A program made the position numbers and the translations under genes. The notes below the pieces were generated by a model that did no database searches, was not told the origin of the DNA, and saw only the letters and a program-made list of their open reading frames with translations. Of a stretch of 64,000 nucleotides of DNA, positions 5,727 to 61,700 are shown one piece after another (position 1 is the first letter of the stretch; every line of letters starts with the position of its first letter). Source of the stretch: Bryum argenteum (Eukaryota; Streptophyta; Bryopsida; Bryales; Bryaceae); contig CM073324.1 of the NCBI GenBank assembly GCA_037043015.1, positions 21,654,097 through 21,718,096 on the forward strand, written 5' to 3'.

Positions 5727-8296
5727 AAGTTTTTAAACAATTCAATCTCATGTATTAGGATAAAAGGAAAAATTAGGCAGATTTCCTTTGATATTTGATA
5801 AGAAACACTCTTTGGAAACTTTTAAGAGGACCCTTAGAGAAGAATTAGGTTGATTGTGACATCATAGAGTTTAAAAAAACTCATGCCCAATTATTTCAAG
5901 CTTAATTCTCTCATTACACCGACCAAACTTGTTACCGACAATAGGCCTCATATTGGAAACACAAAAAATTTCAAATGAGAGCATAAAATAAAATAACTTT
6001 GCTTATGCTGAGTCCCAAAATGCATGGATAGCCACTGATTTAGTATCAACAGGGGATTGCAGAACTTTAGGTGACAAACTTTGCAACTATAGGAGGAGCA
6101 TTCTCCAAGGAAAGACCTAGTAAGTTAGCATCTAAGGAAGAGTGCTCCAAACTGGAGCGGTATCAATAATGGAGCACTAGGCTTCTTGACAGTAGTTGCT
6201 TTTGAAAAGTACGTAAGGCTTCAAACACGATGTGAAGATGGAGATTTGAGTATAAAGCATGAAGTTTCATAGACATTCATCACATTCATCTCCTTCTTCC
6301 TTGATATATATATGACATTTTGTATACTTTACTGAGAAATTTGCTAAACAATAAGCTTCGTTGTAGTTGAATCATTCTAAAAACTTCACATTCAAGAAGG
6401 AAAACCATAGGAACACACTAGGCTTTCATGGCAAATTATTGAAACCTTGATGATTACTTTGAGGTAGTTGTTGCATATTTTTGGAACATGTTTATACATG
6501 TGGTTCAGACTTCAGAGCGCGACGTCACCGACGTGTGGATTACAAGAATTCAATTTTCAAAATATTTATAATCTCCCATTCACAAATTGCATGAACAACC
6601 TAATTCTAAATGAAGCATAAAATGGAGATATAGATTTTCCCGCTAGAGTAACATGAGAACTAATGAGGTCTAAGACACGAACAAGAACATGGATAGGGGT
6701 GCAGTTTAGGGGCGCACTTTAGGACGGGATTTGCAATGAGGACATCATGAATAGGGATGTGGTTTAGGACGCACATCATAAATAGGGATGAGGTTTATGA
6801 CGCGAACCCGATAAAGAGATCCAATTCCTAAATATTTATGTGGGGATGGCAACAACGCCGCAGGCGCGAGCTCGTATCCATTGTACAAAAACAATATAGA
6901 AAAAGAAATCAATAGGAATGATTTGGCTTATGATATATGATTGGCGTAATTTCAAATTGTTTCAATTTACACATAGCTAAATTATATATCTTCGTGCATT
7001 CCCTTGTAAAATTCAGGTGCACTTGTCAAAGGTAACAACAAATAATACTTCTCATATTCCTAAATCCACCAAAACAAGGCCCAAACTTATCACAGAGATT
7101 CATAAAAATTGCACAAAACCCCACCAACACAAGAAGCAAGGCAATAGCACATTCTCAAATGTGAAAAAGGACAAGACGACGTTTCCACAAATGTTGGCAG
7201 ACAAAAGGCCAACATGAAGAATCATTGAACAGATTCATGGCCCAACTTGGCCCGGGGATACATCGAACGCAACAATGAATGGAACATTCCCACTACAAAG
7301 TATCCTTTCTAGTAAACAAAACAAAAAAGCTCGCTCGCAACAATGACGAGTTCCGTCCGACCGACCAGCAATTAAGTTCCCGTATCCGACCACAGAAACA
7401 CGCTCATGCTGCTGGTAATTCAGCTAAGATCCATCACCGTTCTTGAGGAGATTTGCACACATCATCATCTGAAAGAGCATCACTGACATTCCTCGGAACC
7501 TCTTTTGACTAATCATCGCAAAAGCTCAGTTGCAGAACATTCCCCGGCCCCCACACAATCAATGAAGGAATAATGAGCCAGAAACGTACAAAGCTTCGAT
7601 TGAATCGAAAAGTTATTGGGTTACAGGCTCTCCGAAGTAGATGCATCGAAACCAGAAAGTTCAAGGTGTCAAGTTGTGTGTACATAGTGAAGAGTTTATC
7701 AGTAAGTTGATTGTGTGGATGAGATTGGAGGGTCGGTGGAGGTGTATGGCTAGACTACAATTAAGTTCCTTAATGCGAGTTGTATTAATTGATTTGCATT
7801 GTAGAGTCGAGGAGTGTAGAGTGTTGAACTTCCAACTTTTTTACTTGTTTCTCCCTCGAGTTTCACAACTATCGTGGTCAGTAAAAGTGTTTGGATAGGA
7901 ATGATAATCTTGATTTAGTGGTAACACTTGTCAACTTTGGTGGGTAGGTGCTGATTTTTCCAGCTAATTAAAACTATGGAGCCATTTGTAAATTAAATAG
8001 AGTACTGAAATTAACATTGATTTACTTGCAAGAGTAGCAGTTCATGATGTGTCATTCATAGGTGTCAAATTTATTATACACACAAGTTGTGCATCTAAAA
8101 AAATTCTTAATAATCAACATGTATTTATGGAGTCTTTTTGCATTTCAAAATTCATTGTGATTGAGTAAGATTGTTCTTGATTAGCTATGGTTCATAAAAG
8201 GTTTCTTGCTTAAGGTTAGTTAATTCTTCAAATGCATGAGGAAGTGAGTACCGTGAAATTTTAGTGATTTTAGGCAACCCTCGAATACTTGTCATG
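5727..8296. other. Gene-poor stretch with a GC-richer island
   Basis: Mostly AT-rich with no convincing ORF. The part at about 7230-7650 is GC-richer. On the minus strand near 7525-7455 it reads EVPRNVSDALSDDDVCKSPQ and then R and a stop, preceded by an AG acceptor-like site. This could be the last exon of an otherwise unseen or lost gene, but there is no other support. Confidence 0.3.
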
Positions 8297-8383
8297 CTAT
8301 TGTACAAAGATTTACAATGAGAGATCATTTGAGAGATGCTCTTTCAGAAAAGAGATCTCCAATTTTTCCGGACTATGGTGCTA
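8297..8383 (+). repeat. 84-bp tandem unit split by the foldback transposon
   Basis: CTATTGTACAAAGATTTACA opens at about 8294. The same start CTATTGTAC recurs at 8381, where the transposon begins. The continuation AAAGATTTACAATGAGAGGT resumes at about 9353, past the transposon. The simplest reading is two tandem copies of an 84-bp unit with the element inserted in the second copy. Confidence 0.6.
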
Positions 8384-9356
8384 TTGTACAGTACCCACCA
8401 ACAAGTTTACGTTCAGAATTGAGACAAGAGAACATGTTGCAATCTTCAAACAATTACCACGTTCACAAAAATGATCCAAATTGCCAACTACAAATTGTAC
8501 TGTAGGGATAATGTAGTATTTTATACCATCATTACAAGAAATTTCAATAAATATTAGAAATTCTATTTTAATATATGACTTTTTAACATATTATCTATTA
8601 TATTCCCGTAGCTCTTATAACAAGCTACTTTTGGTGAGGCATGACACAATGGTAAACTTCCAACATCTCAAAAAATAGCTTTTTCGATACACTATCTACA
8701 TATGCAATTGCTTCTTACAAAGAACTTGAATTGTATCCCCAAAGAAGCTCAAGATTGGACTTTTGTACTCTAAGTAGATGTCAAGATAACCAAGAGCAAC
8801 TTCAAATGATCATATCCAGAACCTAGAATATCCAAATTCCATCAAACTACCTCCAAAGTCTTCAAATCGTAACAAATATTATCAAAACTATCTCTTTCAT
8901 GCCAATCCAAGCTCCATGTGTTAAAAAATCCATGAGCAATCATTGCACTTCAAAATGTGTATGTAACTTTTTCAATAAGAGACAACATCAAGGTTTATTA
9001 CATCAACTCAACTCAATATTTGTAATTGTGAGCCACATATATGTAAAGGGCATCAAAAGAGGTTTCTAAAGAGATATTAGTACTCTCTTCCTTAACAAAC
9101 CTCTCCATGTAATGGTCTTCATAAGAGCTAAAGGTAGTTTTTAGAAAGTAAGTTAGAAGATACTAAAGTTGTCAAATGAATCTACACATTTTTTGGAAGT
9201 TTTTCATGTATTGGTAAAGAAAAATGCAGTACCTTCTTTCATACTTCATGATTTGCAATCTGGATAGATTTTACAAAAATGGTGGTCATTTGAAAGTTGA
9301 AGGTATGTTATCTCTTCATGCTCTGAACGTAAACTTGTTGGTGGGTACTGTACAAA
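8384..9356 (+). mobile_element. Foldback DNA transposon, copy 1 (973 bp)
   Basis: The ends are near-perfect inverted repeats of about 33 bp: GTACAGTACCCACCAACAAG from 8386, and its complement ending at 9354. Inside, the two halves remain partly complementary for several hundred bases. For example, GATCCAAATTGCCAACTAC near the left end matches the complement of the right half near 9250. There is no transposase ORF. Borders read TA then CAGTACCC, so a Tc1/mariner-type TA target duplication is possible; a 4-bp GTAC duplication fits equally. A second copy lies inverted at 44531-45500. Confidence 0.85.
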
Positions 9357-10020
9357 GATTTACAATGAGAGGTCATATTAGAAGATGCTCTTTAGGGAAA
9401 AAAAAAAGCTCAAATTCTACACCAATGTGGTGATTGGATGGTTGTTGAATATACCAGTCAATGGTAGAGCTCCAACAATGGGTAGAGCAATAAGATCCCA
9501 AGGATTGAATTTAAGTCATAATACAAATAGAACATGTTGGAGAAAGAGAAAAGGGCATCTTTTAGATTGGCATGTGCAACTAGCTATCAAATTTGTGAGA
9601 GAAATTGCAAGAAATTTGATACAACATTGAGATTGATACAGTGAGAAAATTAATCATGAATATGCCGGGCAAGAGAGATGCAGTTGTTTATCAAGCAAAA
9701 GGTGGCTATACACACTGGTTTTTATTACATTTGTACATCAAGTTTTTAAGTAACCATTACCGAACCACATTTTAGTTTAATATAGCTTGATTTGTAGCTC
9801 ATGACTTTATTTACAATGAAACTGGACAACCACTACGCTTTTTCCATAAAGAATTGGACACCCACATCATGTGTTTTGGATTGGCATTTTTGATCGAGAA
9901 TGCTATGTTATATGTTTGTTGTAACTATATGATTGTATGTTTAAATTGTTAGAACTTGAATGTGAGTTATGTAGGAAAACGAGCTCATATTGGCAGAGGA
10001 AGCATCCTGTCCAAACACTT
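9357..10020. other. Intergenic stretch, possible eroded coding remnant
   Basis: The plus strand from 9385 to 9630 stays open and reads basic, protein-like sequence (MGRAIRSQGLNLSHNTNRTC, then KGHLLDWHVQLAIKFVREIA). I recognise no family. It may be what is left of the gene or element into which the foldback transposon inserted. Confidence 0.3.
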
Positions 10021-10251
10021 GTGCTGACCGTTGTATGTAGGTTCGCGGCACCGACAGTCACAACATTAGTGCATTGCACACATGAAACAAGCTAAAATAA
10101 TGTTGATCAATCCTGTCCCGTTCTTCAGTCACAGTTATCTCTCCATCGAAACAACAACCGTCTCAGTGTACAGAGTTTTCAATCTGAACCTGTCAACGTA
10201 GAAACGGCAGTGTCTTTGTACTGTGATGGAACTGGCTCGGGAAGTGCACTT

Positions 10252-10367
10252 CAACAAGCTGCACAGCAGAGGTGTATGACTCTACAACCACGTTGCAATT
10301 CTTGAGGATTGATTGCCACGGCGTGGACGTAGTAGTCTTGCACCCCTGCTGTCACACTAGTTGTTGT
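10252..10367. ncRNA. MicroRNA-like hairpin 1
   Basis: Arm A (10264-10285, CAGAGGTGTATGACTCTAC) pairs with arm B (10329-10351, TAGTCTTGCACCCCTGCTG) across a loop of about 43 nt. The stem continues outward through CAACAA/TTGTTG and inward through CCACG/CGTGG. Mismatches and bulges in the core are few. The size and near-perfect 21-nt duplex fit a plant microRNA precursor. Either strand could be transcribed (see the promoter entry). Confidence 0.75.
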
Positions 10368-10387
10368 AAAAGGAACCTAGCAGCTGA

Positions 10388-10822
10388 TTAACCCCTAAAC
10401 GCCCAAGGGGGGGTAAAGCTCCTAACAATTGGTAATAATGCTGATTTTTTCAAAACTGTGTAAAAACAAATAAAAGATGAAAATGGAAAATCCAACCGTA
10501 GGATCTTCTTTGGAGCATGGCAATTAGAATGACCTCCAAGGTTGCATGCCATTTGGAGGTATGGATTTCAAGATCCATGCAAAAAAGGGGTGAAGATCAC
10601 ACCACAAAACTTTCATGAAAAATCTCTTTCGCCCACTCTTACAAATTGAGGATCAAGGTTTTTACTATTTATCCAAGGAGGGAGTAGAGTAAACCCACCG
10701 AGGAGTTGAGCAAAAAAAACGGCGGATGAAAAGTCGATGGGATGAAAGCAGGGTTGTGCACCAAAGACGGAGCCTCACATCCAGAATGTCGAAAAACGAC
10801 ACTGTGGGCGCTTAAGGGTTAA
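10388..10822. mobile_element. TTAA-CCCCTAAA MITE, copy E2, inside the hairpin array
   Basis: Bounded by TTAA on both sides (10388-10391 and 10819-10822), with ends CCCCTAAACGCCCA and its degenerate complement TGGGCGCTTAAGGG. The interior holds TCCAACCGTAGGATCTT at 10491-10507. It sits between array units one and two. Removing it and one TTAA gives CAGCTGATTAAGCTCTGTC, which lines up with CAGCTGATCGAGCTC in the other units. This supports a TTAA target duplication. Confidence 0.8.
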
Positions 10823-11004
10823 GCTCTGTCAGATCGTCAAAATGCGCAATTGTCACACCGAAACAAAAATCTCTCTCCACACAAAAACCGCCTCAGTCTA
10901 CAAAGTTATCAACCTGTAATGCACAAGCTAAATCTGTCAGTGTAGAAACGGCAATCTTTCTCTTCGTACAGAGACAACTGTGATAGAACTCGGCTACCGA
11001 ATTT

Positions 11005-11065
11005 CACCTTCGAGAGTAATTCAACAAGCGGCACCTCTGCTGTCAGAGTTGTATCAAAATGAACC
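11005..11065. ncRNA. Array unit with its hairpin deleted
   Basis: At about 11020-11060 the outer flank CAACAAGCGGCA runs directly into CCTCTGCTGTCAGAGTTGTA. The outer left flank is therefore joined to the far end of arm B. Arm A, the loop and most of arm B are missing, while the rest of the unit is normal. Confidence 0.6.
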
Positions 11066-11233
11066 ACACAGAATTGATCGAAGCAGCTGATCGAGTTCTG
11101 TCAAAGTGCCATTGTCACACCGACACAATAACACACTTGCTAGATTACCACGTACTCTCAACACCCTGTCATTGTAGAAACGGAATTCTCTTCGTACAGA
11201 GAAAGCTGTGATGGAACTAGCTCGGAATCTTCA

Positions 11234-11339
11234 CCAACAAGCGACACGACAGAGGTGTACGACTCTACAAACACCGACGTCGCATTGCGCTTCAGCGAGG
11301 ACGTAGTAGTCGTTCACCTCTGCTGTCACACAAGTTGCA
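11234..11339. ncRNA. MicroRNA-like hairpin 2
   Basis: Arm A is at 11248-11268 (ACAGAGGTGTACGACTCTAC) and arm B at 11303-11327 (GTAGTCGTTCACCTCTGCTG). The core duplex AGAGGTG.ACGACT is continuous except for one mismatch, with a short bulge at each side. This is the best-paired copy of the five. The loop is about 34 nt. Confidence 0.8.
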
Positions 11340-11493
11340 GTAAAATGAATCTGAAGCAGCTGATCGAGCTCTTACTCCTGCTAAACTGCCACACAACAAC
11401 CGCTTTAGTAAACAAAGTTTTCAATCCAGAAAACGGCATTCCTTCCTCAGTGTGATTGAACTAGCTTCTGTAGATTTACCTCCCCCGAGGAAT

Positions 11494-11596
11494 TCAACAA
11501 GCGGCACAACAGAGGTGTACGACTCTACAACCAGGTTGCATTCTGCTTCCAACGGGACGTAGCAGTCATGCACCCCTGCTGTAACAAGTGTTGTAA
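11494..11596. ncRNA. MicroRNA-like hairpin 3
   Basis: Arm A is at 11507-11528 (ACAGAGGTGTACGACTCTAC) and arm B at 11559-11581 (GCAGTCATGCACCCCTGCTG). The loop is about 30 nt. The lower stem continues with CAACA/TGTTG. Confidence 0.75.
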
Positions 11597-11770
11597 TAAA
11601 ATGAACCTCACAGAAATGATCGAAGCAGCTTCTAGATACATTTTGATCTAGGTTGTCACACCGACACGGTAATCTCTCAAACACTCCGACACCAAATTGG
11701 CCGCTTCAGTAATCAATTCGAGCAAAACCAGCTGCCTACTTTACATTTTCACAGAGACTACATCGCAATT

Positions 11771-11896
11771 CAACAAGCGACACAACAGAGGTGTATGACT
11801 CTACAACCACGCTGCAATTCCTCTGACACGATTGATTGCATCGACGCCCGGACCGGGGACGTAGCAGTCATTCACCCCTGCTGTCACACATGCTGT
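11771..11896. ncRNA. MicroRNA-like hairpin 4
   Basis: Arm A is at 11783-11804 (ACAGAGGTGTATGACTCTAC) and arm B at 11861-11887 (GCAGTCATTCACCCCTGCTG). The loop is the longest of the set, about 56 nt. Confidence 0.75.
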
Positions 11897-12098
11897 AAAT
11901 AGAATTGCACCATTCTATACTACCGATTCTAGGTTGCCACACCGACACAACAATCTCCCAAACACTAGTGCAAGACAACCATTTCCACTAACTAGTGTTC
12001 GAAAGTCTGTACTTCCGCACTAGTGAAAATTATCAATCCTGTTCGAAAACGCCACTCTGCTGATACTCATTCTACGAACTCAGAAAACGAAGAATTCA

Positions 12099-12199
12099 GC
12101 AATCGGCGCAACAGAGGTGTATGACTCTACAACCAGTCTCGATGATCGTGCCTCAATCTGGACGTAGGAGTCCTGCACCCCTGCTGTCACAACATGCTG
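12099..12199. ncRNA. MicroRNA-like hairpin 5
   Basis: Arm A is at 12109-12130 (ACAGAGGTGTATGACTCTAC) and arm B at 12164-12190 (GGAGTCCTGCACCCCTGCTG). The loop is about 33 nt. This copy lies nearest to the TATA-like motif at 12331. Arm A is nearly invariant in all five copies while arm B varies at several positions, so arm A (or its complement on the minus strand, which would begin with U) is the better candidate for the mature small RNA. Confidence 0.75.
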
Positions 12200-12330
12200 G
12201 AACAACCCATTCAACCTGATCATTCGAAACAGAGACACAGACTCTATAACTTATCAAAAAGGTTCAATCTACAGTTACAGATCAAGACGAGCGGTGCATT
12301 CAATGAGATGAGAACGAATGGAATGGTGAA

Positions 12331-12339
12331 TTATATATA
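12331..12339 (-). promoter_or_regulatory. Possible TATA box for the hairpin cluster (minus strand)
   Basis: The minus strand reads GTATATATAATTCACC here, a good TATA consensus. It lies about 130 bp before hairpin 5 if the cluster is transcribed leftwards. A start near 12300 would yield a primary transcript carrying all five hairpins. In that orientation arm A would be the 3p arm and could give a U-starting 21-mer. No comparable motif was found at the other end. In AT-rich DNA this motif can arise by chance. Confidence 0.35.
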
Positions 12340-12419
12340 CTCTCACATGTGTACTAGGTTTGACGTCATCAAGAAATTTATTATTGGGCTAGTTCGTCAT
12401 TCTTTATCATGAAGGGCTA

Positions 12420-13651
12420 CTTTTGTAAGCATGATTAGTGGCACCTAGCTAGAAGCCACTAATCTCGCGGATCCCGCCGGTACAATCAGTTTCTTAATTA
12501 GATTTCTTTTTATCGATATCGGCATGGATTGTTATTAATAGTAATTCCTCAACTGTATGATCAGGTTTTCTTCAACCAGAATGTTCTAACAGATTGTCCC
12601 CTCGTTGCTTCTGAACGGGGGGGCTTCACTAACTAGTAAGTTACTAGTAAGTTACTAAGCGATGATTGTTTGTTTATATGGAATCTCACGATGACTTGTT
12701 GCCTCATATGACCCACGTCCTTTCAACCTTTGGTAGTGATAGTTGTATTCTGTTTTTTTATAAGAAATTTGATGGTTAAACATTACATTGTTTGTTTGGG
12801 AATGAATGAATGACGTAAATTGTCAAGAAACCAACGTGGGTATTCTCAACAACCGTAGGTCGAACGGGCATTTTATTCACGCAAACCCCACACTAGTCTG
12901 GTGTTCTTATTTATTTATTTATCTATTCAAGGTATGAAGATAATTTGACATTTAGATGTTCATGATTGTTTTTCATATAAAGACTGTCTCCTACAAGTTT
13001 CGGCAAAATGACCTCTTTTTATTTCAAGATTGACCCATTGTTTCCAAGTAGCAAAAACTCTATATTGACCAGTAGAAGAATGGAGTTTCTGCTACTTGAA
13101 AAGGACGAAGTTTCGAAAAGTATTCTCACATTCACTCAAATATCTCCTTCTAAACATTTATGTCATAAGAATACATGATCATAAAAATACATAAGTAAGA
13201 GTTGTTGTAATATTAACATCAAATCGAAAGAACAACAAATAAATCTCAAACATATTGTCTATATATGTACATTTGAGAGAGGAAAACAAGAAGTCAAACT
13301 TGTGTTTCCTCATTCATTCTCGATTTGATGAACATTATCGTTTCATTCGTTGACAGAAATGAAGAAGAATTTGTCAAAATATGGGGATATAAAAACAATT
13401 CAAAAATTCAAAAATTAATTTGTGTTTGGGATCCAACAAAAAAACACAGCATCTCGGTCATGTATTACTGAACCCTGTTTTCAATGTAGATGCTCATTGT
13501 GCACAAGGCTCTTACTATCTCCTTTTTTATCATTCTTTCCAGATATTTTACATGCACCACTTATTTTAGAATTCACTTCTCCATTACCTACGTATGGTTA
13601 GACATTTAAATAATAAAAATAAATTATAATTTGAAAATGATGGGCATTTTA
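12420..13651. other. AT-rich intergenic stretch
   Basis: No gene is seen. A short imperfect hairpin (CAAGTAGCAAAAACTC / GAGTTTCTGCTACTTG) lies near 13047-13101. Confidence 0.5.
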
Positions 13652-13913
13652 TCAACCCCTAGAGATCCTTCGTGCAAAATCGTGCAAAGAATGACCTCCT
13701 TTTACTTCAAGACCGAAAAATCTTAATCTGAGCGATATTCAGATGATCCATCCGCAGGATCTTATAGTTAACTTGACATAGTACTTACATGCCCAATTTG
13801 AACCGTCGATTCTTCTTCATGTGTGAGATTATAACGGTCAAAGTTGGCTGAATTTTGTTCCTCTTGGGAATCATCGAAACCCGTTTCCAGTTTTAAGGAT
13901 CTGTCGGGATTGA
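13652..13913. mobile_element. TTAA-CCCCTAAA MITE, copy E6 (decayed)
   Basis: The ends have drifted: TCAACCCCTAGAGATCCTT at the left and AAGGATCTGTCGGGATTGA at the right. The interior is clearly homologous along its length to copy E3b, including TTGAACCGT, GAGATTATAA and GGTCAAAGTTGGCTGA. The shared motif appears as GATCCATCCGCAGGATCTT at about 13746-13764. Confidence 0.75.
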
Positions 13914-16900
13914 AAAACCACTTGCCAAAAAGTGCCATTTTGATATATCAAATCCATTATTGAGACGTATTTGGTTATATTTCAAGAATGCACCCATGGC
14001 TTCTTTGCAAAATCATTATCCTTGTAAGAACATTCTCTCATTATACTAAATTCTACTCTCCTAAAATACCATTTCTCCAAATTATTAGTTGTTACCTACT
14101 AGAGTACTAGGATAATTGCATACTTGTGTCAAGATTCTTCCACATACATCCATCTTTTCTTCATACTTCTAATGTTCTTAAAACATTCTAATTATATATA
14201 TGCAAAAAAGTACGTATATTAATTTCAGACATAGATACTTATTCTTCGAAATTTGAAAGTACAAGAATATTCTCATAACCATGATTTTCATGAAATTTCA
14301 AATTCAAGGCTTCAAGCCAAAGTGTGAACGAGCCCCTCATAAAAGACCACATTGGCATGATCCAAATGGTCTGTAGAAGATCACCCTGAAAAGGTCAACA
14401 TAAAGGCACCATGTTGAAGATTTGAATCATAATAAAATCTTCACAATAACCGAATTTTCATTAAAACAAATTGGGCTATGGAAAGTGGGCGTTTGATTTT
14501 CAAGGGTAAGCCTGACATCGCGACATGAAATTCGGCCACCCCCCTGAAATTTAGGTAGGTAGGTACTTCGAAACGTGTGCGCGCATGTCATGTGGAATCG
14601 CTAAAACTTTTGCGTATGTTTAATGGTGCATTGTGGGCGTACCAGCGCATAGGCGCGAGTGCCATTGTTGACCAAGTTACCCACAACACAAAGCTTGCAT
14701 ATGCGGCGACAATAGTTGCGCCAAGGCCATTGGACAAGTTTTTTCCAACGCTCGAGGTTCGAAATTTGTGTCTAAGGTACATGGGTCGACCTTGTCTCGT
14801 ATGACTATCATGCCATTGGCAAACGTTTTGTGGGTGCTCAAAGTGAAGGGGGCAAACTTGTTCATTGTCCAAAGAGTTGTAGAATTAGGTGAGCTTTATA
14901 GGGGTGTTTTTTTGTCGATACGCATGTAAACTTGCCTTTGTGGAAGTTCGAACCTTCTATAAGTACCCTTTTCAAGTACCATTTGTATGAACGATGTTGA
15001 TTTTCCCCATAATGGACATATAACTTAATATTTTATTACGTAGTTGAATTATTGATGACCCTTGGTTTGAGATCTTCTTGAATCATTCCAGAAGGGAGCA
15101 AAGTCTCCGAGAGTGTAGGAGCTTTGTGTGGAACTTATGGTACCATTTGTGTGACGATTGCATTATTCTAATGTATGGTGCATTATTCAAGGAGCATGCT
15201 TTGAAATCGACCAAATTGCTATACTACTTGAGATATCTTTAGTTGACTTTATACTTCACAAACTTAAAATTGAAGAGGGATTATGAGTTCAAGTTGGATA
15301 TGTGTGTAGGAAATCAAATTACGACCCTACTCTTGAACCTACTCTCCAAGGTTTAGATTCATATACATGGGGCCTAAAGTAGAAACGGATTGCTTTGGGC
15401 AATTTTGCAACAAGGATCTTCACGAATCAACACAACAAATGCTCTTTTTGATTTTGAACTGTAGAGTACTTTCAAAAAATAATAATTCTGCTAAGATAAA
15501 CCAAATTGATAGTTTTGGTGAATTGAGCAAATAGTCAATCAATACCAAGTTGTTGTAATATTAACAAATGATTATTCTAGTTTATTTGCATGAAAATGCA
15601 AGAAGTAAACATCTTGTGGCATTTAACCTTGATATATTGCAAGATATGTGTTTTTGAATTTGATTTGATTTTTTTCGGCATTTACTAGAAAACTTGAGTT
15701 GATTTTGACGGTTATTTTTAAAAACCTACAAATATCAAATATTTTAGTTATAAATTTGACCTTGTTGAGAATGATGTCAATGATACTCCCCATCAAATTT
15801 AAAGGTAGTGGATGATATAAGGGTCATATAGAAAACACCCTACATTGCAAAGAAATACAGTACTTAGAAATTACACTATCTTTTTCTCCACTCAAGAATT
15901 TTTGGGTTATCTTTGCTAAAATTGAGAAACCAACTATGTATGTTAATTTTATTTTCTTTTCATGAAGAGAGAGACAACTATTTCAGAATTTAAATTTTGT
16001 ACAATTTAGAAGCGCTATGGCTTCATTACAAAATGATATTAAAAGCGCACCTATGCGAAAGTGGGCCCTTTTAATGAGTATTGCAAAATAATATTTCTTG
16101 AAAGTCAGCACAATTCCCTTTTTCTCTCCAAATTGCTCAGAAATTCCTAAAAATGTTTCATTTATTTCCATAATTAATCTTGATTTTTTTTGCAAAGCTT
16201 TCACAATCTCTATTTAGAAAAAGGAAAAGAATAAAAAAAAACTAAAGCTTTAGGTACATGCTTAACATTTATATTTGTTTCAATACTGAAAAGATGGTCT
16301 TCGTATACACTGCAAGTATACTTCCACCCAAGCTTAGCAATGAGTTTTCAGAGTTCACACCTTAACTTTGTTATATTTTGTCAAAGGATCACAACAAATT
16401 TCAAAAACTACTCAAACACTTATTATGGTACTAGTAACATAAAATACTCTTTTTTTCAATATAAACTACTTTACTATCTATCATTCACTTGTATAAACTT
16501 CAACTACATGATGGAAGAGACCAGGGTTCAAGAAATAATTTCATCCTTTCTAGCTAATATCCCACGGTTCCCTTGTCCAACCCCGTTTTAGGTGAAACTA
16601 TATACTGGCAATTTTCTCATTTAATATTATGAATAGAAAATTTCTTGTAATTTTCATCAATTTTTAGCAGGGTTGTCTTGTGCGACAAACTCAACACAAC
16701 GTCGAACACGACATGTGAGACAGACAACAAACCCTTTGTTTGAGAATATACAATATTCCTAGAATAAACTTAGAATATTCTAAAATCTGCCCACATATTC
16801 TTGGATATTCGAGCATATTTCATCTAAATTGTTTAATGTACCAGACACCTGACAAACACGACAAACACTCGTGACAACTCGACAAACATTGCCGAAAATG

Positions 16901-23814: not shown

Positions 23815-25680
23815 TAGTAACTGTAATTACCATTTCAGTTTGAATGGACTTGTATTGACAAGTTTTGGTTTAGGTGAAGTTGTCAATGTGAGAAATGGAA
23901 GGAGTTAGACAGTGTTGGAATTTGAAACCTTGAATATTATATATTTTTTTGTTGGTTTATTATTGGTGAATGTTAAATGCCTACTTTGGTCACAATCAAT
24001 TTTCAGTGGGTCAGAGTTAGGTAGAAGTAACATAAATTAGTGAAAGTCACCTCCTTTGTTTCTGTTTAGGCGACATTTCTATTTCCTGTAAGTTGAACTG
24101 GTCTAAATGTATGTAGGCCACATCCTCGGTGTTTATTGCCGAGCATATTGGCCAAATCATCACCTTCTTTGTTCCCATTTAGGTGACAATTCTATTTGTT
24201 TTCACTTGAAGTCTTGAACGGGTCTAAATGAATATAGGCCACGTCTTCTTCAATTATTGCCAAGAATATTGACCGAGCTCGCTTTATTGTATCAGCATCT
24301 GCATGTAAAGGTATGGTTGCTCTTTGTTGCCCTACGTGAAGAATTTGTAGGCACTGCCAACCACTTGCATTGTCCTCTTTTCCAAAATAAGAAGCAAAAT
24401 TCATATAATTACCCTGTAAGACAAAGTACTGCGCAAAAGATAAACAAATGTGAAGTTCTTGAAGGTATAGAAAAAAACCAAGAGAAAATCATATTCACAC
24501 TTACCCCTTCCTGTTATTCATACTTACTAGTGTAGAAGTCATGTTTGTAAGTATATCGATAAGATTCCAATCATATACATTTATAAGTCATATACTATAT
24601 CCTAAAGTTACATTTTTCAATATACATTAGAAAAATGAAAATTTTCACTTTACATCAAAAGAGGGGTAAAACATAAATTTTAGACTTTTATCCAATTTTG
24701 GGTCAATAGCGCATAGTGTAAACCTACATCTTCACTTTACCAATATCATTCACTTACCATGTATTGGTACTAGCATACTTTTGAATCTTGAACTAAAAAT
24801 GTATAGAACCAAAAACTACCAGTATCAATGGGCTTGTATGACCATCATGTATTCCTGCTTTTTTTACAATCAGGCTAGTTTATGTGCTCCTATCATGTTA
24901 ATGTGTGAATTTCTTTAGTACATCAGTTTGGCAATTTCTTATTAGTAAGGGCTGGTTTCTACCATACGGATTGATATCCACCTGAGTGCTGTACAACTGT
25001 GGTACTAGGGGAATGTGAATGATATAATACACGGTCCAAGCAAAGCAAAGCGAACAGTGTACAAGGATTGTGGTTCATATATTCAGAACCTGTGCGAGAT
25101 TCATGTATGTACTCCTTTCGAACAGAAGGCCGCAGCAGGCAGGGTGTTCGACAAAGACATGGCACCCACTTGCAACGACCAAAAGACATTGTACTCTCAC
25201 ATCATCAATATGGGTCACCATGTCTTTGGTGTGGACACACACACACACAAGTCATGAGTCAGAACCCATCCATCCTATCTTCAGTTTTTCACCTCAGCAT
25301 TCACTAATTGGTAACCCATTCTAATTAACTACTGAACAGGCTTGAGAAGACCATCCATCCATCCATCCCAGCTTCAGTTTAAACCTCAGCATGTTACTAA
25401 TTGGTAACTCACACTAATGAACTGAACAGGCTGCCTCGGGATCGGAGACTGATTAGCAGCCATGCACACTAATCATGAAATCAGATTTGAAGGTAATAAA
25501 TTCTCCCTCCTGAATAATCTAATAAGCACAAGTATCTGCTGATGATTAGCTTCTTGTTAGAACCAGGCTATGATAAAAATGATGATCACATAGCATGATT
25601 GATAAGCCTGGCTTTTCTCCAAATGTGGGGGATGGGATTCAAATCTCTCACTTTTAATGAGGAAATTGAATGAAAGCTTT

Positions 25681-25800
25681 GCGGTTTTGATGTCGCATCT
25701 TCGCGGTTTTGATGTCGCATCTTCGCGGTTTTGATGTCGCATCTTCGCGGTTTTCACGTCCCATCTTCGCTCGCGGTTTTCACGATTTTCACGTCCGATC
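25681..25800. repeat. Short minisatellite in the left arm
   Basis: Three copies of a 22-bp unit (GCGGTTTTGATGTCGCATCT, then TC) are followed by one 26-bp unit (GCGGTTTTCACGTCCCATCT, then TCGCTC) and fragments. The mirror arm has four and ten copies. Confidence 0.9.
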
Positions 25801-28546: not shown

Positions 28547-28891
28547 TTCTTTAACTCAGACATTCATTCAAAAAGGGTCACAAAGTACACCATGTTGATC
28601 TCTGAACAAACATATTCACTCTTGTAAACTCTAAATTCCCATTTCATGGTAAATAATGCCCATAAAACTCACAATCTGAAAATGCAACATCTGTGCTGCA
28701 AACCCTCCACAAAACATATTTTCAGGCATTTCTGGAGACAAATCTACACATCATTGACTTGATTAACTTGATCAGAATCCAGCATTATCTACATTCGGCA
28801 GCTTAAATATCAGCCACTGAATTTATCATTTGCTCACGAGTGGTAGACGTCATTCGCTCGTGAGCGGAGATCGGACGTGCAAACCGAGAGC

Positions 28892-29233
28892 GAAGATGGG
28901 ACGTGAAAACCGCGTGCGAAGATGGGACGTGAAAACCCCGTGCGAGGATGGGACGTGAAAACCGCGAGCGAAGATGGGACGTGAAAACCGCGAGCGAAGA
29001 TGGGACGTGAAAACCGCGAGCGAAGATGGGACGTGAAAACCGCGAGCGAAGATGGGACGTGAAAACCGCGAGCGAAGATGGGACGTGAAAACCGCGAGCG
29101 AAGATGGGACGTGAAAACCGCGAGCGAAGATGGGACGTGAAAACCGAAGATGCGACATCAAAACCGCGAAGATGCGACATCAAAACCGCGAAGATGCGAC
29201 ATCAAAACCGCGAAGATGCGACATCAAAACCGC
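28892..29233. repeat. Expanded minisatellite, 26-bp and 22-bp units
   Basis: Ten head-to-tail copies of a 26-bp unit (GAAGATGGGACGTGAAAACC, then GCGAGC) run from 28892 to 29145. Four copies of a related 22-bp unit (GAAGATGCGACATCAAAACC, then GC) follow to 29233. Copies are nearly identical. Because 26 is not a multiple of three, all frames are read in turn. This explains the long Arg/Ser/Phe-rich ORFs, which are not genes. Confidence 0.95.
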
Positions 29234-31419
29234 AAAGCTTTCATTCAATTTCCTCATTAAAAGTGAGAGATTTGAATCCCATCCCCCACATTTGGAGAAA
29301 AGCCAGGCTTATCAATCATGCTATGTGATCATCATTTTTATCATAGCCTGGTTCTAACAAGAAGCTAATCATCAGCAGATACTTGTGCTTATTAGATTAT
29401 TCAGGAGGGAGAATTTATTACCTTCAAATCTGATTTCATGATTAGTGTGCATGGCTGCTAATCAGTCTCCGATCCCGAGGCAGCCTGTTCAGTTCATTAG
29501 TGTGGGATACCAATTAGTAACATGCTGAGGTTTAAACTGAAGCTGGGATGGATGGATGGTCTTCTCAAGCCTGTTCAGTAGTTAATTAGAATAGGTTACC
29601 AATTAGTGAATGCTGAGGTGAAAAACTGAAGATAGGATGGATGGGTTCTGACTCATGACTTGTGTGTGTGTGTGTCCACACCAAAGACATGGTGACCCAT
29701 ATTGATGATGTGAGAGTACAATGTCTTTTGGTCGTTGCAAGTGGGTGCCATGTCTTTGTCGAACACCCTGCCTGCTGCGGCCTTCTGTTCGAAAGGAGTA
29801 CATACATGAATCTCGCACAGGTTCTGAATATATGAACCACAATCCTTGTACACTGTTTGCTTTGCTTGGACCGTGTATTATAATCACATTCCCCGAGTAC
29901 CGTTGTACAGCAGGTGGATATCAATCCGTATGGTAAAAGCGTACACACTGAAAAAATTTAGGTTGAATTGCAATAATTTACTAGTAATAAGAAATTGCCA
30001 AACTGATGTACTAAAGGAATCCACCCTTCATATGGACACATTAACATAAATAGGAGCAGGTAAACTAGCTTGATTATGAAGGAAGTAGGAAATGACTGTA
30101 GCTAAAGTGACATGATGGTCATACAAGCCCATTCTGGTGGTCTTTGGTTCTATACATATGCTACCAATACATGCTAGGTGAACAATATTGGTAAAGGGAA
30201 GATGTAGGTTTACACTATGAGTTATTGACCCAAAACAGGATAGAAGTCTAAAATTTATGTTTTACCCCGAGTCGTTTGATGCAAAGTGAAAATTTTCATT
30301 TTTCTAATGTATATTGATAAATGTAACCATAGGATATAGTATATGATTGACTTATACATGTATATGATTGGAATCTCATAGATATACTAACAAACATGAC
30401 TTCTAGAGTGGTAAGTATGAATAAGACAAAGTGGCACATATGAATAAGGTTTTCTCTTGATTTGTTCTATACCTTCAAGAACTTGATAGATATTTACCTT
30501 TGCATAGTACTCTGTTTAACAGGGTATATGATTTTTACTTCTTATTCTGGAAAAAATCTGATTGTTATATAGCACAATGCAAGTGGCCGGGAGTGCCTAC
30601 AAATTCTTCACGTAGGAAAAGAAAGAGCAAATGTACCTTTAATAGGAGATGTTGATACAATAAAGCAAGCTCGGTCAATATTCGTGGCAATAATTGAAGA
30701 GGAGGTCACGACCTATATTCATTCAGACCCGTTCAAGACTTCAAGTGAAAGTGAATAAAATTGTCACCTAAACAGGAACAAAGAAGGTGATGATTTGGCC
30801 AATATGCTCGGCGATAAACAAAGAGGACGTGGCCTACATACATTTAGCCAGTTCATCTGACAGGAAATAAAAATGGTCACCTAAACAGGAACAAAGAAGG
30901 TGATTTTCACTAATGTATGTTACTTCTACGGTTCTATCTTATTCTGACCCACTGAAAATTGATTGTGACCAAAGTAGGCCTTTAACTTTTAATAAACCAA
31001 CAAAGGAATATATGATATTGAAGGTTTCAAATTCCAACACTAACTCCAACTATATTCCATTTCTAACATGATTCACCTGAACCAAAATTTGTCAATACAA
31101 GTCTATTCAACTGACTGATAAAACTGAAATGGTAACGACAGTTACTAGTAAGTTATGATCAGCTATAGCTCTCAAACAGATACGCTAAGCGGGATAACCG
31201 GACCAGGATTGTGACTTCTCCATGGCATCCATTAGCTGGCATACTCCTTAGTGAGAACGGAAATTGAATTAGTGAGTGGATTAGTGAGTAACCTCATTAA
31301 TGGCCGTCGGGTAATTAACTGAAGCTGAAGAAGGAGGTAGAGGAAGAAGAAGCAATTGCTGTTCGTCGTCAAGAGACTCCACGATCAGGCTATGGAGCGC
31401 TCCGATGCTTAGTAATTAT

Positions 31420-33643: not shown

Positions 33644-36600
33644 ATGGCTTTCAACAATTTATCTGGTGATGCCTCCTTGCAGCAATTTCCGGAGCTTTGG
33701 GAAAGCTCCAGATTCTCACAAAGGCAGGATGATTTGGAACCAGATCAGCATAGAAGGGCGAGTTTCGACGAAAGACAATTGCCTGAATCTCAAGAGCCAA
33801 ATATGGAATTGCATCACAATATGGAGAATCAACTCAATGCCGGCCTTCTTGTAGATGATAGAAACAATGGAGGAAGTCAGATAAACGAATCGGAGGCGGC
33901 AGAAGAAGACAGCCGCCTGCTGGAAACTGAGGAAGGAATTGTGAAGAGTGGACCAACTTGGCTCAATAGTGCTGTTCTGAGGCAGCAGAATCAAGTTGCC
34001 GAAGAACGAGAATACATTGATCAAGATGCAGCGGAGAAGTGGTGTCCCGTTTGTTCTGCCAGCGGTTCACAGACTTGTATGTGTGCCATGCCGATGCATG
34101 CTGGTGATAGACTCAATGCGATGGCTTTCCAGAATCAGAATACCTACACCCATTGGTTGTCGATGCAAGGAGCCAACATGCATGGTTCGCAGCACCGAAC
34201 AGGGGAGCTTGATGGAAAGGCTGCTGATTTTGAGATTAATCCCCAATCTACGAGGATGGCCACTGAGCTGAATTTGTCTCCAGCCGGGCATGGGAGAGAT
34301 TTTTCTCAATTTGCGGACTTGCGGCACACCGTAGGGGGCAGTTCAAAATATGCTGAAGAGTACGTCGAAAGAGTGGTACATCAGGTAATTTTCACAATAG
34401 CGTACATGAACGAAAGACTCAAGGAGCTTTCTCCACATTACGTTGGCAATTCTACACCTATGCGCGTTTTGATTGCATTGTGCAGTGTTTTACATCAATC
34501 GACTAACTATTTCGTACACTTTTCGTACAATTTTTTTCCTGTTCTGCTCGCTCCCTTTCTTCGGTGTCTGAAATGCTCAGGGAATGTGAGAAATATTGCA
34601 CACAGTGGCCGAAACTGCTCGGCCCCGTTCGCTTCCTAATGTACATGACCTTTACAGAGCGACTGGGAATGTGCAACGCAAAAGCTGGAGTGGGAGCAGG
34701 CCAGAGACAAAGCATTGATTGTGGCTCATCCACTGTATCCAGAGTTGCTGAATGCACATGCGGCTTGTCTCCGAGTGGGAACCCCGGTGGATCAGCTCCC
34801 ACATATTGAGTCCCAATTAGCTCAAGCTGGGCACGTTACAAATAAGTACTCGGTTCTGCATCCTGAACAACTCGAGATCGCGCAAGATGATAAACTCGAG
34901 CTTGATCAGTTTATGGTATGTCCAATTTCTAGTTGTCTGATCCAACTTCGTGGTGAAAACTACTTTATTCTCTCCAAGCAGGCATGTGAAATTCTACGGC
35001 GGTTTAATACATATATGTTGACCATCAGTAGTCGACCAGCCAGAATCTGTTACCACATTGAGAACATTCTAAGTTTGTCTGATGCAGACTCAGTATATCA
35101 TGCTTCTCTGTTCGTTTAAAGAACAACTGCAACAGCACGTCTACTCTGATGTTACTGAGGCAATGATGTCCTGCTGGGAGCTCGAACAGGCCTTACATAC
35201 ACTCACGGGTAAGCCAAAACAGAATTGATACCCCACACTGATTTCAGATATGAACATTAACACGATTAACCCTTATTACAAATTGCTTGATAGTAGCCTT
35301 TGCTTCGCCTGCAGTGGAATCTGAAATTACATGTGTATTGACGGACTGATTGGAAAGAAAAAATAAATTGCACCATCTTCAGGTAGCAAGCGAGAATTAA
35401 GTGAGACTCGTTTCTAGGTTCTCTTATATTTTCACTTTTAAGACGGGCTAAGTACGACTTCCAACACTGACAGTACTTCCAGATTGAGCTTTCTGTTCTT
35501 GAATTGTCTCCTTTAATCGGATAAGAACCTGGAAGCTATCGTTATGAGGACGCAGCTGTAAGCTGAACATACTCTTTCTAAACTTCTGGAGGAAAATGAC
35601 ATTCTGATAATCTGAACTCTATAGGATACAGAGAATGTCTTACTGACTAATCCTGATGTACTTGTGTTGCATAAGCGGGATGTCTCATTTTCTCAGACCT
35701 TATGTCGATTGATGTGACCTTCATTGTGCATCAATGTAAGGCGTTTGTTCTGACCTTTGATGTGTCTTCCATCAAATCGAGGACATTGACCCTTGCCATT
35801 GTGTCCTTGGCGATTAATGAGTAACTGTTAAGTGTGTTTTCAGTGTTCTCAATCAATGTGCGAGGCTTCAGTGAATAATCTCTTGATTTTCATCTGTTCA
35901 GGGGTCTCTGCGGGAGAGAGCACGGGGGCAACAATGTCAGATGACGATGAAGACTATGACAGTGACTATGGTGCATATGATTCCAGCATGGATCCTGGAG
36001 ATAGTGGAGGTTTTGGCCCTCTTGTGCCTACAGAATCAGAACGTACACTCATGGAACGTGTACGCCAAGAACTCAAATACGAGCTGAAGCAGGCAAGTCC
36101 TTAGACCTAAGGTCACTGAACAAACACTCACTCCAGAAGATCTTAATTCATACTCTTAGGTCAGAGCAGGATCTTGTGTCGGTCTCAACAACATGTTAGG
36201 GAGCATTTGAACGCATTGATGGTTAGCAAGCATTAACTTCATATCTTCTTGTTACCAGGGTTACAGAGCAAGGATTGTTGATGTTCGAGAGGAGATTTTA
36301 CGCAAACGACGAGCTGGGAAGCTGCCGGAGGGCACCACGACGGTTCTAAAGGCTTGGTGGCAAGCACATTCCAAGTGGCCTTATCCTACGGTACACAATA
36401 GTCAGTGTCGGTTCATGTACATAGATATTAAGTCATAGATCTATGAAGTACATCATGCGTTGCTATACACATATATTGCTGGTCCAAATACTCAGACTTT
36501 CTGTAACTCCTCCGGAACTGTTTTGCATCGGTCTAAGCAGGAGGATGAGAAGGAGAAGCTGATACAGGAGACGGGTTTGGAGTTGAAGCAAGTCAACAAC

Positions 36601-47423: not shown

Positions 47424-49215
47424 ATGACAGTGTGGGTCACTCTCCTTCTGCTTTACATTTGGAGCAGCGCCTCTTCATGTCGGAGCTTGGACATGGACAT
47501 GGAGTCGGGAACCCGAACGGCCTTTTCCATGTTGAGATTGGTTGCGGGGAAATTCTGGGAATTCCTCTGCTACATATTTCTAATGCCCATCAGGTTTGTT
47601 GGTCTCATTCTTTTCAAATCTACTTCTTATTGAAATCTGGGGTTTTGTTTCCTTCTTTCTTGATTGCAAGGTTTCGATCTTCAGATTATATCTAGCGAGT
47701 TCTTTAATTAGGTGGCTCCTCGTCTTGTGTCGGTTTCGGCTCCGCTCGTTGTGTCGAACTTCGCATCTATTTCGTAAATTTCAGGTATCAGCTAAGTTTG
47801 CATAACAAATCTTGATAGCCATTTTGCTTCAATACCTGTCCACCAATTCAATACCTGACCACGAGTTTTTTGGAAGTTTGTGGACGAGTTCACATTCAGA
47901 GTATTACTCCTGGCACATCGAAGGAATGATCAAGAAGGGGATGAGCGACGAGGACGCAGCCAAAAGCCATTATACGCAAACGTGGAAACCAACAGAGGAG
48001 GAGGAAGCTGTCGTAGAAGCTAATAAGGAGCTCTTCGAGAGTCATATGAAGAAGCCATGGGGTAGGTTCTTCACGAAGATGGACAATTCCACGGAAATAA
48101 GCAACAAGCCGATTGCAAAGGGAGGGCAGGCCGAAATCTTTCTCGAGAAGCAGGTCTCCGGCGAGCCGAAAACATACATGGGTCGGACACAGCATCTGTT
48201 GAAGGTTTACAAGTACCAGACATCCCTGCAGCTTTTGCTGGAGGAAGGAATGCCAAAAGGGATGCTCGAGGAGCACGTTCTCACCAGGCAACGTCTGAAC
48301 GAGGCGGTGGAATCCACCGACGGAGAGATAGAGTTCCGGACAGTCTTCAATTCCGGAAGACCTTCCACACAGTTACGAATGCACCGGTGCAACATATCTC
48401 ATATTGTGTTGTTGAAGGACGGACGGCTTGCCTTTCGACTTGCACAGTATTCTGCTGATCTGCGAACGTTCATCAATCGTCTCAAAATGAAAGACAACGA
48501 GAGCCCGCCATTCTCTGATGATGTTGCTGTTCTGTGTATGCTGCAAATCGCCATTGGGATGCGAGATCTGCACAATGTCGACATTGTGCATTGTGACATC
48601 AAAGCAGCCAATGTCTTGATCTCGAACTCACTGCATGGACTTGAGCCTGTAGAACAGTTACGTGAGTATCCATTGTATTGTTGGCTGGCAGATTTTGAGT
48701 GTTCGGTTGGATGTTTCGGGACGGGGTTTTGGAATGCGCCAGAGATATTGCGGTATCTCAAGTTCTCATTAGGATATCCTCATAAGGAAGAAAAGGTGGA
48801 GGAGGTTCTCAAGGAGGAGGTTGCGAAGGAAGAAGCTGAGGAGGAAAAGGATCCCGATGAAGATGATCTCAAGTTCCTGAAGGAAAAGGATAAGGAGCGT
48901 CAAGGGGAAGTCACCAAACATTTCACCAAGAAAACTGATGTTTATAGTTACGCAATGACGTGTTATGAAATTTTAACAGGTCTCATGCCTTTCGAGCGCG
49001 GACGAGAAGCTAAGGAGCATGAAGTTTTTGATCCTCCTTACAAGAGGCCGAAGTTACCTGGTGACATCAAGCCTTGGATGCGGAATTTGCTGGAGAAGTG
49101 TTGGAATCAGGACCCTCTTGAGAGACCTACGTTTGAAGAAATCGTGAAAATGATAGAAGAAGCTGAGCCATCTTCAAAAGAACGTGTTTTGAGACTCTGG
49201 ACTCATGCGCGATGA
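47424..49215 (+). CDS. Atypical protein kinase with acidic activation-segment insert
   Basis: The main exon carries a kinase domain. It has a glycine-loop variant IAKGGQAEIFLEK, the lysine strand HLLKVYKY, the catalytic loop HCDIKAANVL with its Asp, LADFECS in place of DFG, and GTGFWNAPE. About 60 residues rich in Glu/Lys separate APE from KKTDVYSYAM. MPFERGR and WNQDPLERPTFEEIV close the domain. The ORF opens at 47812, but a better model splices 47424-47593 (donor CAG-GTTTGT) to 47877-49215 (acceptor GGAAG). That gives 502 residues with a hydrophobic N-terminus (VTLLLLYIW; FWEFLCYIFLMPI), so a membrane-tethered kinase is possible. DFE for DFG suggests altered metal binding; activity is uncertain. 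The upstream exon is inference. Confidence 0.85.

Positions 49216-59858: not shown

Positions 59859-61700
<1,842 letters not shown>

Follow-up and report, generated by a model that had tools for sequence, protein, structure and literature searches.

miR1223 is attributed to the moss Physcomitrella patens in the excerpt of PMC7088424 that deals with it, where ppt-miR1223 is printed as UUGUAGAGUCAUACACCUCCA (table columns as we interpreted them, not the miRBase entry). Onion and mulberry sequences that bear the name miR1223 in literature excerpts differ from this printed form at several positions. A literature search by the exact letters of the conserved arm described below found nothing, and a search for "miR1223" returned no moss paper by title. 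According to a passage of PMC9291395 citing Axtell et al. (2007), 25% of the P. patens miRNAs are polycistronic, thus clustering in itself is not unusual. The locus described here is like those polycistronic moss loci in that several hairpins of the same strand stand in a row. Plant microRNAs are generally recognized by precise 20–22-nt guide and passenger reads in replicate libraries and by a target that is cleaved or repressed.

In the window, that is, the whole 64,000-nt stretch of Bryum argenteum DNA that was analyzed, located at C4:21654097–21718096, five tandem hairpins occupy positions 10255–12195 (Table 1). A 20-nt arm, CAGAGGTGTAYGACTCTACA, fits a single pattern with one two-fold position in all five units (10267–10286, 11250–11269, 11510–11529, 11786–11805, and 12112–12131), its copies following each other at distances of 983, 260, 276, and 326 nt. 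No occurrence of this arm is expected by chance, as 100 dinucleotide shuffles contained no match even with up to three mismatches allowed. The complementary opposite arm was found in all five units, and part of it is also present in a sixth unit that has no hairpin. Considering the results presented below, we concluded that the array is very probably a moss miR1223 cluster encoded on the minus strand, this estimate covering both identity and strand. What is added is a new cluster of an already known moss microRNA family. The sequence-only reading had described five tandem foldbacks with one near-invariant arm and a complementary, more variable opposite arm, which agrees with all five copies, and its proposal of a tandemly expanded plant microRNA family is supported by covariation, by the geometry of the duplexes, by the matches in Rfam, and by another cluster in the genome. 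Its suggestion of an unrecognized, possibly lineage-specific family gave way to the match with RF01941, miR1223, known from P. patens in the excerpt of PMC7088424.

Table 1. Features of the putative miR1223 array and its surroundings (positions in the window; W1 is first in the inferred order of transcription)
Feature	Position	Strand	Predicted mature 3p	RF01941 score	Basis or remark
TATA-like motif, candidate promoter	12333..12339	-			motif match only; 137 nt upstream of W1
MIR1223 hairpin W1	12100..12195	-	12112-12132	39.9 bits, E 2.3e-7	Rfam, fold, duplex
MIR1223 hairpin W2	11774..11892	-	11786-11806	42.3 bits, E 4.4e-8	Rfam, fold, duplex
MIR1223 hairpin W3	11498..11588	-	11510-11530, G at nt 11	40.8 bits, E 1.3e-7	Rfam, fold, duplex
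MIR1223 hairpin W4	11238..11334	-	11250-11270, G at nt 11	37.9 bits, E 9.5e-7	Rfam, fold, duplex
Sixth unit without hairpin	11011..11052	-			repeat-family members; 5′ arm joins sequence that elsewhere follows the 3′ arm
MITE, 435 bp	10388..10822	.			TTAA at both ends; between sixth unit and W5
MIR1223 hairpin W5	10255..10360	-	10267-10287	45.5 bits, E 4.5e-9	Rfam, fold, duplex
Decayed fragment resembling S3 3′ arm and basal flank	7719..7761	- (array's strand)			local score 46

Folding each unit, as the sequence-only reading had proposed, gave a hairpin stronger than its shuffles in all five cases. The z-scores on the minus strand were −5.15, −4.77, −3.61, −4.11, and −3.65, and none of the 200 shuffles folded as well for any unit, while on the plus strand they were −3.90, −2.98, −3.12, −2.55, and −2.59, with 0, 1, 0, 3, and 4 equally good shuffles out of 200. 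When random 100-nt stretches of the window were drawn 1500 times, only 0.2–0.67% matched the per-nucleotide folding of the minus-strand hairpins. The minus strand was superior in z-score and in Rfam score in 5/5 units and in plain MFE in 4/5, the exception being W5, which folds slightly better as plus. The three hairpins of the related cluster described below likewise had better MFE on their named (plus) strand. Moreover, several differences between the arms are read as G–U pairs on the minus strand and as A–C mismatches on the plus strand. Since the minus strand is better supported, we placed the conserved arm on the 3′ side; the sequence-only reading, which had favored the other strand, had printed its reverse complement. 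The predicted mature RNA is 5′-UUGUAGAGUC(A/G)UACACCUCUG, 21 nt long, on the 3′ arm.

At the gathering score, Rfam gave no match anywhere in the 64-kb window. In E-value mode, however, the five hairpins were the only strong Rfam matches in the window, all to RF01941 (MIR1223) on the minus strand (45.5, 42.3, 40.8, 39.9, and 37.9 bits, E 4.5e-9 to 9.5e-7) and all covering model positions 1–102; as plus-strand sequences they matched the same model more weakly (35.7 to 26.6 bits), as expected of a hairpin. The gathering score of this family is 77, and because all five hairpins lie below it, the covariance model alone cannot settle their membership. The placement of the guide arm on the 3′ side and the layout of the hairpin are the same as in MIR1223. 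Over nucleotides 1–19, the guides of W1, W2, and W5 are identical to the ppt-miR1223 printed in the excerpt of PMC7088424, and those of W3 and W4 agree with it at 18/19 positions owing to the G at nt 11; in contrast, the window guides end in UG and the printed ppt-miR1223 in CA. The window hairpins also differ from the family in the sequence of the basal stem and in two features of the 5′ arm, namely one extra bulged nucleotide and a G for A in CAGCA(A/G), which closes the mismatch at guide nt 19.

A sister cluster of three hairpins (S1–S3) was found about 1.9 Mb away on the same chromosome (C4:19776569–19777279, plus strand). These scored 77.1, 61, and 80.8 bits against RF01941, so that only two of the eight hairpins in the genome, both in the sister cluster, reach the gathering score. 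The guides of S2 and S3 are likewise identical to the printed ppt-miR1223 over nt 1–19, and the A-type guide is common to both clusters, while that of S1 has G at nt 13, as in the Rfam consensus, which contains the S1 mature arm exactly and is 0.94 identical to S1. The presence of the same mature arm in hairpins above the gathering score supports the membership of the window array. The hairpins of the two clusters can be aligned with each other (pairwise identity 0.68–0.86 over aligned positions; best BLAST E 1.8e-12, for S2), and when 5.5 kb of the sister region was compared with window positions 7000–15000 at E 1e-3, the matches were confined to the hairpins and about 10 nt around them, except for the decayed fragment at 7719–7761. 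In the 258.8-Mb genome, exactly eight sites match the 20-nt guide core with no more than one mismatch, all of them in the two clusters. A genome search with RF01941 at E ≤ 1 gave 17 matches, counting both strands, 16 of them in the eight hairpins, but only 50 of 13,948 candidates were scored and distant MIR1223 members may therefore be missed. The remaining one, at C2:6665396 (31.6 bits, E 0.0018), was rejected, being an inverted repeat that lacks the guide. Matches below the cut-off, and none above it, also appeared in 3 of 14 bacterial control genomes searched at E ≤ 1. Judged from the sequences, of the two clusters it is that of the window that has diverged, which suggests that the gathering score of RF01941 may miss diverged members. 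miR1223 would be represented in this moss genome by a diverging five-hairpin cluster and a three-hairpin cluster.

Every window hairpin can form a duplex of a 21-nt guide and a 22-nt passenger with 1–3 internal mismatches and one asymmetric nucleotide, and guide nt 1 is unpaired in all five. The criteria that Axtell and Meyers reportedly set out in 2018 are a hairpin shorter than 300 nt, at most five mismatches, at most three asymmetric nucleotides, and the guide and passenger within one stem. By these structural criteria, with lengths of 91–119 nt and the duplexes described, 5/5 hairpins have the form of a plant microRNA precursor. The bulged passenger nucleotide is C, G, G, A, and A in W1–W5, respectively; the same bulge (C) occurs in S1, while S2, S3, and the Rfam consensus have none. 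The mismatch at guide nt 19 is closed by CAGCAG in the window hairpins versus CAACAA or CAGCAA in S1–S3 and the consensus. The excerpt of PMC6572396 states that 22/21 duplexes usually arise from an asymmetric bulge; in these, the 22-nt strand is the miRNA and is able to initiate the production of siRNAs. The parallel is only partial, because the longer strand here would be the passenger. We consider it improbable that the window cluster is a specialized miR1223 branch, with the bulge kept in 5/5 hairpins as a 21/22 duplex while its identity drifts. If this were true, the bulge could alter processing or enable this branch to elicit secondary siRNAs, in contrast to the precursor of the Physcomitrella type, which has no bulge.

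The array has also lost and gained sequence. The 983-nt step after the first arm copy is accounted for by the 435-bp insertion together with the unit whose hairpin was lost, the junction in the latter sharing GTG as read by eye. The insertion is a MITE with the termini CCCCTAAACGCCC and GGGCGCTTAAGGG, and its TTAA ends suggest a piggyBac-type element. With 40 of 512 candidates scored, the genome contains at least 41 matches to it with 95–100% identity, each of which starts at query positions 1–5 and ends at 437–440 of 440; the left terminus with TTAA was seen in all 12 loci looked at, and the right terminus was read in the window. The MITE is young and abundant. The piggyBac-type transposase domain PF13843 had at least 116 matches among 775 candidates in the genome, mostly without a stop, and PiggyBac is listed among the angiosperm MITE superfamilies in the excerpt of PMC10004981. 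The sequence flanking the MITE is found uninterrupted in two other units as GCAGCTGATCGAG(C/T)TCT, thus the insertion probably occurred later than the tandem duplication. The decayed fragment at 7719–7761 scored well above the maximum of 30 in 500 shuffles and of 27 in the other scanned stretches of the window, and was not recognized by Rfam. An array in which a hairpin was lost and a transposon was gained illustrates, within a small locus, how a moss microRNA family undergoes birth and death. Otherwise the locus represents ordinary moss microRNA biology, in which the divergence of the duplex and the changes seen within the array are of modest interest.

These traces of decay raise the question of whether the array is a silent miR1223 duplicate, with the sister cluster supplying the RNA. 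This explanation is nested in the miR1223 reading and concerns expression only. It would agree with the lower family scores (37.9–45.5 vs. 61–80.8 bits), the lost hairpin and the inserted MITE, and the additional fragment about 2.5 kb off, and yet the guide arm has remained near-invariant in 5/5 units while the flanks and loops diverged. Among W1–W5, 1/21 columns of the guide vary and 5/24 of the passenger arm. In the alignment of all eight hairpins, a 27-pair stem has 95.8% of its 215 cells paired and 6/27 pairs are changed on both sides (shuffle mean 1.9), values that none of 500 shuffles reached, and sliding one arm by 1–3 columns lowers the pairing to 33–48%; these alignment controls overstate the significance, because related units and mutually dependent columns were compared and the structure came from the same alignment. 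Such two-sided changes preserve pairing, which also speaks against decay. Recent duplication or conversion could have kept the arms alike, but the flanks would then be expected to be alike, too. We regard a silent duplicate as unlikely.

The same pattern bears on the possibility that the array is a plain tandem repeat or a foldback transposon without microRNA function. Some flank sequence is indeed common to the units and the genome is rich in MITEs, but when the five units were aligned with 110-nt flanks, the best 21-column window coincided with the mature arm (20/21 columns invariant), a concentration that none of 10,000 column permutations attained, a control that assumes independent columns. 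The Rfam microRNA match of all five hairpins and the restriction of the guide core, within one mismatch, to the eight sites of the two clusters are also contrary to such an origin, which we consider very improbable; the constraint pattern is more in keeping with a microRNA gene family than with a plain repeat. The possibility that the plus strand encodes a repeated protein segment, with the arm readable as E-V-Y-D-S-T in every unit, can practically be dismissed, as the W1–W5 lengths (96, 119, 91, 97, and 106 nt) differ by non-multiples of three, stops break the frame in 3/5 hairpins, and the changes preserve base pairs.

Hairpins, strand preference, family match, covariation, and the near-invariant guide arm were observed directly, and the best-supported account of how the miR1223 array would act is the ordinary plant microRNA mechanism. 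Using the minus strand, RNA polymerase II would synthesize a single primary transcript, or more than one, beginning near 12.3 kb, where the candidate promoter motif of Table 1 lies. Further TATA-like motifs occur on this strand 560 and 1998 nt upstream of W1, while on the plus strand none was found in the 2000 nt before 10255; in the sister cluster, TATA-like motifs are located 346–352 nt upstream of the first hairpin. PolyA-like hexamers are present on the minus strand at 9811, 9781, and 9726. From the 3′ arm of each of the five hairpins, a Dicer-like enzyme would release the 21-nt guide, presumably excised opposite the 22-nt passenger with its one-nucleotide bulge. The guide, which begins with U, would be loaded by Argonaute and would then repress complementary mRNAs.

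Prediction of such mRNAs, another proposal of the sequence-only reading, was carried out on 50 loci and yielded no well-paired coding site. With at most three mismatches, 27 guide-like sites (eight of them the hairpins themselves) were found in the genome versus 76 for the reversed control pattern, thus guide-like sites are not enriched. All 27 sites and 30 of the 94 obtained by a wobble search, with seven in common, made up the 50 scored loci, among which no convincing coding target was found. The sole site outside the family with two mismatches (C10:8460838) has no frame longer than 74 aa, and two further sites have two mismatches and two wobbles in a 120-aa frame (C10:4714436) and three mismatches in a 103-aa frame (C5:14914700). 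Two loci were rejected, a frame that we read as GARP/LUX-like, in which the site appears to be at a splice acceptor (C9:10265892), and one that we read as kelch-like, with four mismatches (C3:21351556). The wobble pattern had 94 sites versus 16 for the control, but two repeated sequences, present in 22 and 21 exact copies, account for 43 of the 94. When paired with the guide, each leaves one mismatch and five to six G–U wobbles. The 22-copy repeat lay in copia-type retrotransposon frames, by our own reading, in all five scored loci of that kind. As each repeat family represents one event, the wobble sites in copia-type frames were read as chance, and the excess was not counted as evidence of targeting, although some of these sites may conceivably be targets.

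Several other features were recorded in the window. ARAGORN found no tRNA in it. A kinase ORF lies at 47806–49215; among the 120 of 251 matches listed, its best named relatives are Ceratodon purpureus proteins (43% identity), eight other proteins score higher (up to 55%), and Physcomitrium patens lower. At 28862–29237, units of 26 nt (11 copies) and 22 nt (5.3 copies) form tandem arrays that are mostly inside a 132-aa minus-strand open frame, and the same 22-nt unit forms an array in the opposite orientation at 25677–25770. The dinucleotide AT is perfectly repeated 65 times at 60358–60487. A KNOX1 domain at 34649–35119 (56.4 bits), approximately 22 kb from the array, is part of a KNOX homeobox gene.
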